A stretch of DNA of 64,000 nt from Bacteroidota bacterium (lineage in GTDB: Bacteria > Bacteroidota > Bacteroidia > Chitinophagales > Chitinophagaceae). Each line of letters begins with the position of its first letter. Position 1 is the first letter of the stretch. The position numbers and the translations under genes are program-made. Below are positions 45,101 through 51,086 of the stretch, in pieces. Below the pieces are notes generated by a model that was not told the origin of the DNA, ran no database searches, and saw nothing but the letters and a program-made list of their open reading frames with translations. The DNA is taken from assembly GCA_016868895.1 (NCBI GenBank), contig VGFK01000002.1:1-64000 (forward strand). The letters are read 5' to 3'.

Positions 45101-45917
45101 CAATTACAACATCCGCTATAACGAAGAATTGGGTCGCTACAAGCGCGAAAAGTTCAATATTTCCATCGGCGACGAATTGCCTGCTGGTGTATTGAAGTTG
45201 GCCAAGGTATACCTGGCGGTGAAACGTAAGCTGAAAGTAGGCGATAAGATGGCGGGTCGTCACGGTAACAAGGGTATTGTTGCCAAAATTGTTCGTGCAG
45301 AAGACATGCCGTTCCTCGAAGATGGAACACCGGTGGATATCGTATTGAATCCGCTGGGGGTACCTTCTCGTATGAACCTGGGACAGATTTATGAAACCAT
45401 TCTCGGATGGGCCGGTGAAAAATTAGGCATGCGTTTCTCTACTCCCATCTTTGATGGTGCAAGTGTAGATGAAATCAAAAATTTGATTGATAAAGCGTCG
45501 TTGCCGAGCTTTGGTCATACACACTTGTACGATGGTGAAACCGGTGAACGTTTCCACCAAAAAGCAACCGTGGGCATCATTTACATGCTGAAGCTGCACC
45601 ACATGGTGGACGATAAGATGCACGCGCGTTCCATTGGACCCTACTCACTCATCACGCAGCAACCGCTCGGTGGTAAAGCCCAGTTCGGTGGTCAGCGTTT
45701 CGGAGAAATGGAAGTATGGGCTCTGGAAGCATACGGAGCATCCAACATCCTCCAGGAATTGCTTACACTCAAATCGGACGATATCATCGGAAGGGCCAAG
45801 ACCTACGAAGCGATTGTCAAAGGCGACAACGTGCCAAAGGCCGGTGTACCGGAGTCCTTCAACGTACTCGTGCATGAGCTACGTGGATTAGGCTTGGATC
45901 TTAAGTTTGATAACTAA
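42108..45917 (+). CDS. rpoB: RNA polymerase beta subunit
   Basis: 1269 aa, the normal Bacteroidota length. It begins [20 protein letters not shown]; the rifampicin region [27 protein letters not shown] is at about residues 465-491 (only its ends are quoted as a guide), with the wild-type residues DQ, N, H and R expected of a sensitive enzyme. GNKGIVAKI near 1052, the [15 protein letters not shown] segment near 1083 and the C-terminal [24 protein letters not shown] near 1185 are intact. A terminator precedes it, one follows it, and rpoC is not downstream. Confidence 0.97.
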
Positions 45918-45934
45918 GACGTATTTTAACATAT

Positions 45935-45983
45935 CGGTTGACAATCAAATGGTAAATTTCCATTGGATTGTCAACCGTTTTTT
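45935..45983 (+). terminator. Strong intrinsic terminator of rpoB
   Basis: A 12-bp perfect stem (CGGTTGACAATC / GATTGTCAACCG), extended after one mismatch by AATGG / CCATT around a 7-nt loop, then a run of six T. It lies 17 bp past the rpoB stop and shows that rpoB transcription ends here, with no rpoC. Confidence 0.9.
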
Positions 45984-45987
45984 ATTG

Positions 45988-47421
45988 ATGCCCAACAATG
46001 CCTATACGAGAATTGGTGTTTTACTGCTTTTGGCTGCGCAACTCATGTTATTTACTTCCTGTCGGAAAAATGAATTGACGGGAGGAGGGTGGACGCCCGC
46101 TGATACGGCGACTTATAACCCGGATTGGACCTTTTCGTCCCACGGAAACAGTCTTCCCAATTATGATGTTGTATTTCCGCCAACCAAGGTCAATACCCTT
46201 GAACTGGTAATGACCGCATCACAGTGGACATCGGTTAAGGCAAATGTGAAGACCATAGTAGGATACGAGTTTGGAACCAATACACCATCGCCTCCCGCAA
46301 ACAGTACGGCAGAACCCAGTTATATCGATGTAACCATGCGGTTCAATGGGAAAACATGGAAGAACGTTGGTTTTCGTTTAAAAGGAAATTCCTCGTTGCG
46401 GTCTGCTTGGGGGCAAGGCAATTATAAATTGCCATTCCGATTGAATATTGATCGCTTTGAAGACCAATATGCCGGAATCACCAACCAGCATTTTTATGGG
46501 TTCGAAGAACTTTCATTTTCACCCGGCTTCAAAGATCAATCACTGATTCGAGAAAAGTTGGCTGCAGATGTGTTCCGGGCTGCCGGAATACCTGCCGCCC
46601 AGACCGCCTTCTATCGTGTGTTCATAGATTTTGGAAGTGGTCTCAAGTACTGTGGCATATATACTGGAGTAGAGATTCCGGATGATAACATGATCAAATC
46701 GCAGTTTGGGGAAGAAAGTGGCAACATCTATAAACCAGAGTCTAATCTCGTCGCCTTCGCAGAGGCGGTATTTGAAAAAAAGAACAAAACACTGACTCCT
46801 GATTTCAGTGATGTAAAAAGTTTTTTAGCGGCTTTGAATGATCCCATCCGTTCCACCAATCCTGCTCAATGGAGGACTGCGCTCTCTTCCAGGTTCAATG
46901 TGGATCATTTCTTAAAGTATCTGGCGGTGAACAATGTGATGGTGAATTGGGACAGTTATGGGGTCATGGCGCACAATTATTATTTTTATAACCATTCAGT
47001 AGCTAAACTCACGTGGATTCCCTGGGATCACAACGAGGCATTTTCAGGAAGTCCGGGCCTTACCGGCACTGGAAGCGGTGGGGGAATGGTGCCCGGAGCT
47101 GGAAGATCACCATTGTCCTTGACCATGAATGAAGTCAGTTCTTCATGGCCGTTGATTCGTTACCTGGCAGATGATCCAGTGTATTTTGAGCGGTATAAAT
47201 CGTTTGTTCGACAGTTTACCAGCTCATCTTTTGATCTCAACCAACTCAACACCTTGATTGATCGGTATCAGTCGCTCATCTCTCCCTATGCCATAGGAGA
47301 AAATGGCGAGATCCCCCAGCATACCTATCTTACCAATGCAGCTGCATTCACAGCTTCATTTGCAGCCATCAAATCGCATTTGTCGGCCCGTAAAACACTC
47401 GCTCAAACCTTTGTTCGATGA
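45988..47421 (+). CDS. CotH kinase-family lipoprotein
   Basis: 477 aa. The N-terminus is a lipoprotein signal with lipobox LFTSC (Cys near residue 23). The CotH domain (about 125-400) shows the usual opening VTMRFNGKTWKNVGFRLKGNSS (given as a position guide near 113), LPFRLNIDRF, FYGFEELSFSPGFKDQSLIREKLA near 170 and the IDFGSGLKYCGIYTGVE region. CotH proteins are secreted or envelope kinases with a protein-kinase-like fold. The catalytic D and N set WIPWDHNEAF is near 346. It opens an operon with VTC, DUF4956 and DUF2490; the stop overlaps VTC by 4 bp. Its substrate is not known. Confidence 0.88.
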   Translation: MPNNAYTRIGVLLLLAAQLMLFTSCRKNELTGGGWTPADTATYNPDWTFSSHGNSLPNYDVVFPPTKVNTLELVMTASQWTSVKANVKTIVGYEFGTNTPSPPANSTAEPSYIDVTMRFNGKTWKNVGFRLKGNSSLRSAWGQGNYKLPFRLNIDRFEDQYAGITNQHFYGFEELSFSPGFKDQSLIREKLAADVFRAAGIPAAQTAFYRVFIDFGSGLKYCGIYTGVEIPDDNMIKSQFGEESGNIYKPESNLVAFAEAVFEKKNKTLTPDFSDVKSFLAALNDPIRSTNPAQWRTALSSRFNVDHFLKYLAVNNVMVNWDSYGVMAHNYYFYNHSVAKLTWIPWDHNEAFSGSPGLTGTGSGGGMVPGAGRSPLSLTMNEVSSSWPLIRYLADDPVYFERYKSFVRQFTSSSFDLNQLNTLIDRYQSLISPYAIGENGEIPQHTYLTNAAAFTASFAAIKSHLSARKTLAQTFVR

Positions 47422-48101
47422 AGTGGGATCAGGTGTTGAATGAATTTGAACGCTGCCGACTGGAAGATCTTCCTGCTGAGCTGGTATACTCGGGTAGAAA
47501 AGACATCAAATACCCCATGAACCTGGAGCAGGCAATTGAAGTCCTTTCTCATTTGGACAGCAATTATCGGGTCATGTCCTATCAGGGGACGCTTATTCAG
47601 CATTATTGCACCGATTATTTTGATACACCCGATTTAGTTTATTATCTGGATCACCACCGGGGAAAGCTCAACCGGGAAAAACAACGAAGAAGAACCTACC
47701 AAGATGGAACTTCATTTTGGGAAGTAAAAAGTAAGAACAATCGGGGACAAACCATCAAAACCCGCAACACAAACAGGGTGGAAGCAAGCGATGGGCTTAT
47801 TCAACAATTGCATGTGGAATATGATCGGATCACGCTTTTTTCAAAAGATTTTTCCGAAAAAATTACAGTAGATGTTAATCTGTGTTTTTCACGCAACCAC
47901 CAGGAATTTCAAGATCAGCACCTGATTGTGATGGAAAGTAAAGGGACATCCCACCACCGGTCGCCATTTAATGTGTTGATGCGTGAGTTGCATATTCGTC
48001 CCAATGGGTTCAGTAAATACTGTGTTGGAATGGCACTGCTCTTTCCTTTACTAAAAAGCAATAATTTTAAACAATTGTTACGTTCCACGTTAAATATATA
48101 A
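47418..48101 (+). CDS. VTC-domain protein (polyphosphate-polymerase-like)
   Basis: 227 aa. It is a soluble, single-domain member of the VTC/CYTH-related triphosphate-tunnel fold. Basic and acidic tunnel residues are visible: RKDIKY (about 26-31), the YFDTPDLVYYLDHHRG strand pair near 69, LNREKQRRRTYQDG near 86, FWEVKSK near 104, ITVDVNL near 150, VMESKG near 172 and KYCVGMALL near 193. In yeast, VTC4 with this fold makes inorganic polyphosphate from ATP. There is no SPX domain or membrane anchor, so activity is inferred. It overlaps CotH by 4 bp and DUF4956 follows after 3 bp. Confidence 0.85.
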   Translation: MKWDQVLNEFERCRLEDLPAELVYSGRKDIKYPMNLEQAIEVLSHLDSNYRVMSYQGTLIQHYCTDYFDTPDLVYYLDHHRGKLNREKQRRRTYQDGTSFWEVKSKNNRGQTIKTRNTNRVEASDGLIQQLHVEYDRITLFSKDFSEKITVDVNLCFSRNHQEFQDQHLIVMESKGTSHHRSPFNVLMRELHIRPNGFSKYCVGMALLFPLLKSNNFKQLLRSTLNI

Positions 48102-48104
48102 TAC

Positions 48105-48710
48105 ATGAGTCATTTTCTTCAGTTAATGGGTAATTGGTCCTGGGAAGAAATCAATCCGGTTTTTGTAGTAAAACTGACATTGAATCTAATTGCAGTGGGC
48201 ATCTTATCGTGGCTGATCTATTTGAAGCACCACAAACGGTCCGATCTGATCCTTACGTTTTTTGCATTCAATACCATCGTATTCCTGATCAGCTATTTGC
48301 TCAATCGTGTAGACCTGAGTACGGGTGCTGCTTTTGGACTATTTGCTATTTTTTCCATGTTGCGCTATCGGACAGAAGGAATATCTGCGCGGGATATGAC
48401 CTACTTGTTTTTATCCATTGCTATTGGACTCATTATGGCAGTGAGTACCGGCACATTTTTTGAGCATGTAGTACTTGCAGGATTTATTTTATTGCTCACG
48501 TCGGTATTGGAGCGCGGATTTTTTGCCACCCAAACTTCAGTCATCTCAATTGTATACGAGAAGCCGGAATTGATTCATCCCAGTAAACGAAAAGAACTTT
48601 TAGATGATCTGCATGCGCGTACCGGTCTTACCATCCGGCATATTGAAATTGGCGACATTGATTATCTCAAAGATGCTGTTGTGATAAAAGTATACCATGA
48701 ATTGCGTTAG
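48105..48710 (+). CDS. DUF4956 membrane protein
   Basis: 201 aa with four or five hydrophobic helices (about residues 20-45, 48-68, 75-90, 100-118, 125-145), including the conserved GLFAIFSMLRYRTEG loop near 80 and ARDMTYLFLSIAIGLIMA near 95. A soluble C-terminal domain of about 55 aa follows. DUF4956 genes are repeatedly found next to VTC and CotH genes in several phyla; the function is unproven. A role as a membrane partner or channel for the VTC product is inference. The stop overlaps the next start by 14 bp. Confidence 0.85.
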   Translation: MSHFLQLMGNWSWEEINPVFVVKLTLNLIAVGILSWLIYLKHHKRSDLILTFFAFNTIVFLISYLLNRVDLSTGAAFGLFAIFSMLRYRTEGISARDMTYLFLSIAIGLIMAVSTGTFFEHVVLAGFILLLTSVLERGFFATQTSVISIVYEKPELIHPSKRKELLDDLHARTGLTIRHIEIGDIDYLKDAVVIKVYHELR

Positions 48711-49374
48711 TCGTTTCCATATAGTGATGGCATTGAGTCTTGCGGGTGTAACAGCTCAAGCGCAGGCTACCCGCTCGGATCCTGTTGATGGACAAGGATG
48801 GTACGGGGCTGGACTCGAGCTCAACTTGCCCAAGAAATGGGGAGCGGAAATATCGTACCAGTCCCGTTTCTACAACGACCTCAAGACCTATTATGGGTCC
48901 TATTTATCGCTATCGCTGGAGAAAGGATTATCCAAGAGTGTTTATCTGCTCGGCGCATACCGTTTATCCAAATTGACCAAGGGCACCTACAATCGGTTTA
49001 CGGGTGGAGTCGTATTCAAAAGAAAGCTGGGCGATATCAAGACCGATGTGAGGATGATTTATCAAAACCAGGTCCAGGATTTTGATGATCCTGCTAAGGA
49101 GGACGATCGGGATAATTTTGTGCGCATCCGCTTAAGGGGTCGAAAAAAACTTTCTGATCGATTTGATGCGATCGCCAGTGCAGAACCCATCTATCAAATT
49201 GCGAAAGGAGTACAGATCGACAATTACCGCTTTCAGGCCGGCTTGAGGTATTCGTTTACCAAGCAGGCCAGTTTGGACGTGTTTTATATCAATCGCCCCG
49301 ACTATGCAAAGTCATACAAGCGGCAGTATCACATCTTGGGTGTTGCGTTCAATTATGAATTGAAAGTCGACTGA
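48697..49374 (+). CDS. DUF2490-type outer-membrane beta-barrel protein
   Basis: 225 aa with a signal peptide (MALSLAGVTAQAQ). The mature part alternates strands such as WYGAGLELNLPKKWGAEISYQSRFY and ends in YHILGVAFNYELKVD. DUF2490 proteins are small barrels of unknown function. It starts within the end of the DUF4956 gene, so all four genes 45988-49374 are coupled. Its stop is 2 bp from the convergent PiT stop. Confidence 0.75.
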   Translation: MNCVSRFHIVMALSLAGVTAQAQATRSDPVDGQGWYGAGLELNLPKKWGAEISYQSRFYNDLKTYYGSYLSLSLEKGLSKSVYLLGAYRLSKLTKGTYNRFTGGVVFKRKLGDIKTDVRMIYQNQVQDFDDPAKEDDRDNFVRIRLRGRKKLSDRFDAIASAEPIYQIAKGVQIDNYRFQAGLRYSFTKQASLDVFYINRPDYAKSYKRQYHILGVAFNYELKVD

Positions 49375-49376
49375 TC

Positions 49377-51086
49377 TCAATGGATCAACGTCGTGATCCA
49401 GTACACCAAGCCTGCCAGCACAGCACTTACAGGAATGGTCAGCAGCCAGGCCACCAGCAGGGATGAGGTTACGCCCCATCGAACAGCACTGAGCCGTTTT
49501 GTGGCTCCTACACCAATGATGGAACCGGTAATGGTATGCGTAGTGGATACCGGAATCCCCATTTGACCGGTGAAAAACAAGGTAAATGCTCCTGCTGTTT
49601 CTGCTGCCACGCCTTCCAGGGGGGTTACTTTAGTGATTTTGGTACCCATGGTTTTTACAATTTTCCAGCCTCCGCTCATTGTACCAATGCCTATTGCGAG
49701 ATAGCAGGAAATGGGTACCCATCCGGGAAGCTGTCCAAAGTCTTGAATTTGTCCACTGGCAATGAGCGCAGCGCCAATGATACCCATAACCTTTTGTGCA
49801 TCATTTCCGCCGTGACCTATGCTGAATGCGGCAGAACTGAAGAGCTGCAACTTTTTAAACATGCTGGCAACAGAATGGGCATTGGGGGTTTTTATTTTCT
49901 CTACATAGATATAAGCAAGCATGAAGAACACTGCAGTAAGGATGATGCCCCACACTATTGCATAGTTTTCCGACTTCTCAATATCCTTCTTGAAATCTTT
50001 TTTAATGTCGAATTTTTCAATTTTCGACTTAACCTTTTCCCAGCTCTTGGGATCTATTGGATAAATAGCATTGATGGCTGCCAAGGTGCTGTCCAGGCTG
50101 ATTTCTTGTTTGAGGTATAGTTTTAAAGGCGACTTGTATTTTTCAGTTTCTGTTTTGGCAACATCAAATCTATCTTTGAATTCAGGATTTTCTGCAGCCA
50201 GTGACTCTAATATAAGATAGTTATTTGCGTTGCGGGTGGCGTCTTTGAGTCGACTAACTTCTATGTCTTTTAGTAATCCGTTGTGGTAGGCATAGTTTAC
50301 GATCGAATCGGTGCCAATTTCATCATAAAGTATGACTCGGGGAACTAGGGTGTTGAATATGACTTGAGCATCGCCGAGTTTTTTAGATGCCTCCCGTTCC
50401 TTTATGATCAGCGAAGAGTCAGAGGGAGATGCTTGAAAAGCAGATGAAGCTTTCGCGTAATCCGTTTCGTATTTATCCAGTTTGATGAATTTCTTGAGCC
50501 CTTCTTTCATTTTGCCTTCTTCAAACGTATCGAAGATCACGACGGTCAGAAATGTTGCTGCACAAATGATTGCACACCTCATCCATATGTTACGAGCAAC
50601 TGTAACAATCGTTATGAAGATCGAAATGATCATTCCAATCATGGGTGCGAAAAAGATAAAGAGTACGGTTTTTATGATGGTTTGACTTTCAACGATTTTA
50701 TTCCAGGCAATGAGTTCTCCAGAATCAATGAATGCATGGGCAATCGCCGCACCAGCGAAACCTCCAATCAAGGTATGCGATGAGGAAGAGGGAATGCCGT
50801 ACCACCAGGTGAGCAGGTTCCAGAAAATAGCTGCGATTAGTCCCGACAGAATAACCGGAAGGGTAATGAACTCTTTGTTTACCGTTTTGCTGATGGTATT
50901 GGCTACTGCATGATCTTGAAAAATCCAGTAAGCAACAAAATTGAAAAAAGCAGCCCACACCACTGCTTGGAAAGGGGTGAGTACTTTTGTGGAGACTACG
51001 GTAGCAATTGAATTAGCTGCATCGTGAAAACCGTTGATGTAATCGAATACCAGCGCCAGAATGATGATCGCAATCAGAAGTGTCAT
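49377..51086 (-). CDS. Inorganic phosphate transporter, PiT family, with large hydrophilic insert
   Basis: 569 aa. PiT signature sequences lie near both ends: DYINGFHDAANSIATVVST (about residues 15-33) and GHGGNDAQKVMGIIGAAL (about 419-436), with PSSSSHTLIGG and PVSTTHTITGS as the paired loops. About ten transmembrane helices. Residues about 186-372 form a charged, soluble insert between the halves; such inserts occur in other long PiT proteins. It takes up phosphate with H+ or Na+. It is third in a minus-strand operon (porin, DUF47, PiT). Confidence 0.94.
   Translation of the reverse strand: MTLLIAIIILALVFDYINGFHDAANSIATVVSTKVLTPFQAVVWAAFFNFVAYWIFQDHAVANTISKTVNKEFITLPVILSGLIAAIFWNLLTWWYGIPSSSSHTLIGGFAGAAIAHAFIDSGELIAWNKIVESQTIIKTVLFIFFAPMIGMIISIFITIVTVARNIWMRCAIICAATFLTVVIFDTFEEGKMKEGLKKFIKLDKYETDYAKASSAFQASPSDSSLIIKEREASKKLGDAQVIFNTLVPRVILYDEIGTDSIVNYAYHNGLLKDIEVSRLKDATRNANNYLILESLAAENPEFKDRFDVAKTETEKYKSPLKLYLKQEISLDSTLAAINAIYPIDPKSWEKVKSKIEKFDIKKDFKKDIEKSENYAIVWGIILTAVFFMLAYIYVEKIKTPNAHSVASMFKKLQLFSSAAFSIGHGGNDAQKVMGIIGAALIASGQIQDFGQLPGWVPISCYLAIGIGTMSGGWKIVKTMGTKITKVTPLEGVAAETAGAFTLFFTGQMGIPVSTTHTITGSIIGVGATKRLSAVRWGVTSSLLVAWLLTIPVSAVLAGLVYWITTLIH

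Follow-up and report, generated by a model that had tools for sequence, protein, structure and literature searches.

The window, that is, the whole 64,000-nucleotide stretch analyzed here (Bacteroidota bacterium, Chitinophagaceae, contig VGFK01000002.1), comes from an uncultured organism and contains a four-gene operon that is a diderm form of the VTC-DUF4956-CotH module. Our firmest finding is that these genes are coupled across genomes. The operon looks like a bacterial counterpart of the yeast apparatus that synthesizes polyphosphate (polyP) and feeds it through a membrane, and we lean towards a mechanism in which VTC would make polyP in the cytosol, DUF4956 would carry it over the membrane and CotH, once exported, would act on it or together with it.

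A first-pass annotation had proposed four genes here, in the order CotH, VTC, DUF4956 and DUF2490, separated by a 4-bp overlap, a 3-bp gap and a 14-bp overlap. Pfam matches bore out the families at the proposed positions, and all three spacings were reproduced from the coordinates:

45935..45983, + strand: hairpin and U6 tract 3′ of rpoB (fold -24.6 kcal/mol, z -5.5)
45988..47421, + strand: CotH kinase-like lipoprotein, 477 aa (PF08757, 2.2e-54)
47418..48101, + strand: VTC-domain protein, 227 aa, predicted cytosolic polyphosphate polymerase (PF09359, 1.8e-22)
48105..48710, + strand: DUF4956 membrane protein, 201 aa, candidate translocation channel (PF16316, 5.7e-49)
48697..49374, + strand: DUF2490 predicted outer-membrane beta-barrel, 225 aa (PF10677, 7.6e-16)

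The -4 and -14 overlaps are also seen in L036, the locus of the nearest congener. Relative to L036, pS is saturated for all four genes (0.78–0.91) and pN is low (0.11–0.24; for CotH, over the 358 codons present in L036). The four genes are therefore conserved proteins rather than chance frames, and all are under purifying selection. The upstream neighbor, identified by translation as rpoB, ends at 45917. The hairpin, whose U6 end lies 4 bases 5′ of the CotH ATG, is the probable rpoB terminator and upstream boundary of the operon. Downstream, on the opposite strand, Pfam matches identify Pit/PHO4, PhoU_div and Porin_O_P.

Profile searches in relatives showed that linkage of the families, which the first-pass annotation had made a condition of its proposal, holds far beyond chance. 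The relatives' set comprised 151 genomes, 52 with VTC and 99 without detected VTC. DUF4956 was present in 52/52 of the former and in 3/99 of the latter, at least one of these three carrying a partial VTC where its contig ends. The order VTC-then-DUF4956 was found in 130 of 136 distinct loci, and in 99 of them the two genes overlap. In one congener (G025, locus L035) both lie in a single reading frame; this is one observation in a draft genome, L035 and L088 being the same contig. VTC-DUF4956 is the constant core of the operon. CotH accompanies this core at the genome level: it was found in 51 of the 52 VTC genomes and 19 of the 99 others (p 4.5e-23; here and below, p values carry no correction for common descent, and any gene that a draft genome lacks is scored as absent). 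The same holds within the genus (13/13 versus 8/28, p 1.6e-5) and in other families of the order (36/36 versus 7/24, p 9e-10). Among 201 Chloroflexota genomes, 19 have VTC and 10 have CotH; all ten CotH genomes have VTC (p 4e-12), and in eight genomes the two genes are side by side. Here the VTC–CotH dependence is opposite in direction to that in Bacteroidota relatives. A 777-aa VTC fusion in the Chloroflexota genome G324 was rejected as a GC-rich shadow frame.

Physical clustering of CotH with the core is less regular, being seen on the same strand and within four genes of VTC-DUF4956 in 35 of 83 evaluable Bacteroidota loci. This bears on a reading in which the operon is a loose island of envelope genes, with CotH and the barrel there through chance or shared transfer and VTC and DUF4956 alone cooperating. 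Several congeners indeed have no CotH beside VTC at the same site (L038, L047), and in eight CotH-less VTC loci a Cthe_2159 (PF14262) beta-helix protein stands instead of CotH, the two never occurring together. However, genome-wide co-occurrence of VTC and CotH is seen inside the genus, across the order and also in a phylum unrelated to them, and CotH is found on either side of VTC-DUF4956 depending on lineage. We consider such a loose island highly unlikely.

In the majority of VTC-less congeners whose site can be read, rpoB and Pit directly adjoin in convergent orientation, while in the window (45917-49377) the whole operon fills the gap between them; the operon is therefore gained or lost as a unit. 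We also considered coupling to phosphate uptake through Pit and PhoU_div, and rejected it: rpoB–Pit adjacency is independent of the operon, and in two VTC genomes (G006, G011) rpoB is beside Pit and VTC is at another place. Because rpoB adjoins Pit without the operon too, the nearness of Pit and PhoU is not evidence of a shared pathway.

Turning to the individual proteins, the AlphaFold2 model of VTC (pLDDT 91.8) matched Vtc4 (3g3r) with a Z score of 17.3 in VIA (196 aligned residues, 2.8 Å). The top matches were all yeast VTC domains, and non-VTC tunnel enzymes scored at most 14.5. A profile built from 49 bacterial VTC sequences likewise matched Vtc4 at 4.5e-13. At the residue level, Vtc4 K200, R264, R266, K281, K294 and Y359 correspond to window K31, R90, R92, K104, K114 and Y135, and Vtc4 R361, E426, K428, S457 and K458 to R137, E173, K175, S199 and K200; Vtc4 R373 aligns with K148, a conservative replacement. 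Equivalents of both the metal glutamate (Vtc4 E426) and the catalytic lysine (Vtc4 K458) are thus present. Nine of the aligned tunnel residues are among the 16 residues invariant across the 49 sequences. The first-pass annotation had made its proposal depend on an intact tunnel, and the Vtc4-like set proved complete, with every compared residue identical or conservatively replaced. We found no reports of enzyme activity for bacterial VTC proteins in the open-access literature.

The tunnel fold is shared with triphosphatases, and it is conceivable that VTC uses ATP to phosphorylate some other acceptor or hydrolyses short polyP, with DUF4956 as an ACT-like sensor instead of a channel. Fold similarity to triphosphatases is clear (ygiF, Z 14.5), and D29 retains an acidic side chain where the triphosphatase acidic patch has its second glutamate (Asp in 43/49 bacterial sequences, Glu in 6/49; Thr in Vtc4). 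Moreover, the C-terminal domain of DUF4956 is a small alpha/beta domain whose weak Foldseek matches include ACT domains. On the other hand, the four-glutamate patch with its E-x-E-x-K start (defined in PMC4641920) was not found: the window protein has R27-x-D29-x-K31 together with K175, the position of the third glutamate being only approximately mapped. Apart from D29 the patch is Vtc4-like, R27 replacing the first glutamate, and K175 belongs to a Vtc4-type E-x-K, this position being glutamate in AtTTM3. In the bacterial VTC family the counterpart of the catalytic Vtc4 K458 is an invariant lysine, a residue that is dispensable in a plant triphosphatase (PMC4641920). A non-polymerase tunnel enzyme paired with a sensor seems to us distinctly unlikely.

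The AlphaFold2 model of DUF4956 (pLDDT 85.9) comprises four long helices, a short one that ends in R87-x-R89, and the alpha/beta domain (144-199). According to this model, the protein may have four or five membrane spans, with domain 144-199 in the cytosol. R87 is invariant, R89 is present in 49/50 sequences, and position 23 is K/R in 86%. Neither sequence searches nor Foldseek revealed a convincing solved relative, and no relation to the membrane domain of Vtc was detected by sequence or fold. A resemblance of the membrane part to ALMT channels (VIA Z 6 to 7.5) was rejected as lying in the chance range for helical bundles. Since there is no solved relative, the proposed channel role is by analogy: in yeast Vtc4 the catalytic domain is directly followed by the membrane part, a layout mirrored by the VTC>DUF4956 gene order and by the one-frame congener, and yeast VTC couples polyP synthesis to translocation (PMC9911596). 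Elsewhere in the window genome (G000:C1:203406-203624) there is a weak DUF4956-like match, below the cut-off at E 6e-4, within a frame of ~610 aa; similar matches occur in G026 and G080.

The window CotH matched the solved CotH 5jd9 at 3.3e-8 in phmmer, with both catalytic aspartates aligned. A column check over 79 sequences equated D322 and D347 with B. subtilis CotH D228 and D251 (numbering on the 477-aa protein; that of the 504-aa ORF runs 27 higher). Its N-terminus (...LMLFTSC) contains a lipobox by eye and does not match the strict lipobox pattern. Thus, the window protein shares the fold family and both catalytic aspartates with the Bacillus spore-coat kinase, but the sequence similarity is modest and the window CotH is an exported lipoprotein. 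The window lineage is not known to sporulate. A second, exported CotH subfamily, starting SSNLPIIVINT, was noted in the window genome (L182, G000:C1:142282-143370), at L169-L176 and in many VTC-less relatives; it is not beside VTC.

The products of the operon are consistent with the cytosol, inner membrane and envelope layout that the first-pass annotation had proposed. In the mechanism that we favor, VTC would be an ATP-fuelled cytosolic polyP polymerase of the Vtc4 type, and DUF4956 would be its dedicated partner, moving the growing chain over the inner membrane as does the membrane domain of Vtc4. The chain would then emerge outside the inner membrane, where the CotH lipoprotein might act jointly with it on material of the envelope or cell surface, and the DUF2490 barrel would serve the outer membrane. 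We infer that VTC polymerizes, that DUF4956 transports and that CotH is active, as well as the way in which CotH puts the product to use. The yeast VTC complex (Vtc1/Vtc3/Vtc4 or Vtc1/Vtc2/Vtc4) has the catalytic tunnel fold and residues in common with the window VTC. It differs in having SPX domains, which the window system lacks, and in residing at the vacuole rather than the plasma membrane; the window operon additionally encodes CotH and an outer-membrane barrel. If the favored mechanism is correct, bacteria couple polyP synthesis to export in a manner comparable to the vacuolar system of yeast, by proteins unrelated to PPK1/PPK2, with VTC-DUF4956 loci in Bacteroidota, Chloroflexota and other phyla. 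It would also assign a role to DUF4956, hint at how exported kinase-like proteins work outside the cytosol, and make the purpose of a widespread, unexplained gene set testable.

A more specific version, which we regard as unlikely, is that CotH, as an extracytoplasmic kinase, takes its phosphoryl groups from polyP exported by VTC-DUF4956, ATP being scarce in that compartment. Such a donor would let protein or glycan phosphorylation run outside the cell membrane. It would explain the presence of VTC in all ten Chloroflexota CotH genomes and, since CotH acts in the ATP-containing mother cell, also why B. subtilis has CotH and no VTC, as seen in our control genomes. The argument is correlative because linked and unlinked CotH showed no difference in conserved residues and 19 relatives have CotH without detected VTC. 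An altered ATP pocket in VTC-linked CotH was considered and rejected, as conserved columns show no clear difference from unlinked CotH.

The nearest described gene set is the Pel accessory set of Gram-positive bacteria. The cotH-PPP-DUF4956(-DUF4832) genes lie beside pel genes in streptococci, clostridia and bifidobacteria (PMC7112168), and the set of S. thermophilus and S. intermedius (cotH-PPP-DUF4956-DUF4832, SIR_1594-1591) shares CotH, VTC and DUF4956 in one operon with the window. The window operon differs in lacking a DUF4832 gene and in its added outer-membrane barrel. The first-pass annotation was therefore right that VTC, DUF4956 and CotH are known to occur together (PMC7112168), but the literature describes them in Pel loci and the window set lies outside one; the authors of a 2025 paper did not find this synteny outside Pel (PMC12345266). 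A C. perfringens locus also contains VTC and CotH genes (PMC2879425), and an iron-response table lists BT3498-99 (DUF4956, DUF2490) (PMC10434189). Our literature search covered open-access papers, not subscription papers or preprints, and turned up no description of what the Bacteroidota form does. If the favored mechanism holds, cotH-PPP-DUF4956 of Pel loci would be one case of a wider module.

The same association raises the question of whether VTC, DUF4956 and CotH instead tune the synthesis or attachment of a secreted glycan, with polyP incidental or a signal. In S. intermedius, deletion of DUF4956 or CotH changed Pel and aggregation, whereas deleting the VTC gene is not reported to have altered either (PMC12345266), which cuts against strict polyP dependence. 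Furthermore, the locus L058, with the order DUF4956-CotH-VTC, adjoins glycosyltransferase genes. At the window locus, however, neither contiguity with pelDEADAFG nor any glycan-synthesis gene was found beside the operon, which is flanked by rpoB upstream and the phosphate transporter Pit (PHO4) downstream, and most listed loci have no constant extra non-envelope partner, although many neighbors there are unannotated. Such an accessory role for a secreted glycan is in our view fairly unlikely.

Returning to polyP synthesis, we searched for the established polymerases. PPK1 makes polyP from a nucleotide, and both PPK1 and PPK2 are unrelated to VTC. Neither PPK1 (PF02503) nor PPK2 (PF03976) had a match in the window genome (G000, 95.8% complete), which leaves VTC as the sole polyP polymerase family detected there. 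PPK1 is present in 134 of the 151 genomes searched, and the idea that VTC replaces it was rejected, as PPK1 absence is not enriched with VTC (6/52 versus 11/99).

Finally, we looked at the envelope genes around the core. An outer-membrane gene is found near VTC in 63 of the 83 evaluable Bacteroidota loci and in 0/15 Chloroflexota loci, as expected if the route spans the envelope. The corresponding gene at L164 and L165, two loci of gammaproteobacterial MAGs (records named Thioploca and Haliea), is a Porin_O_P gene instead. Two further exported proteins recur in Bacteroidota and are missing from the window operon: a ~130-aa lipoprotein with the motif C..GxGGTSxIxGKV (42/83 loci) and a ~160-aa YD-repeat-like protein (36/83 loci). 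A Pfam scan of examples of both gave no confident family. A six-gene operon, CotH-LPG-YDR-VTC-DUF4956-DUF2490, with the small exported genes upstream of VTC, occurs among L053-L167 (e.g. L068 and L146). CotH-less VTC-DUF4956 with Cthe_2159 was noted at L154, L160, L199, L205, L209, L214, L215, L118, L132 and L144, and at L200 the CotH-less pair is accompanied by a response regulator and a histidine kinase.
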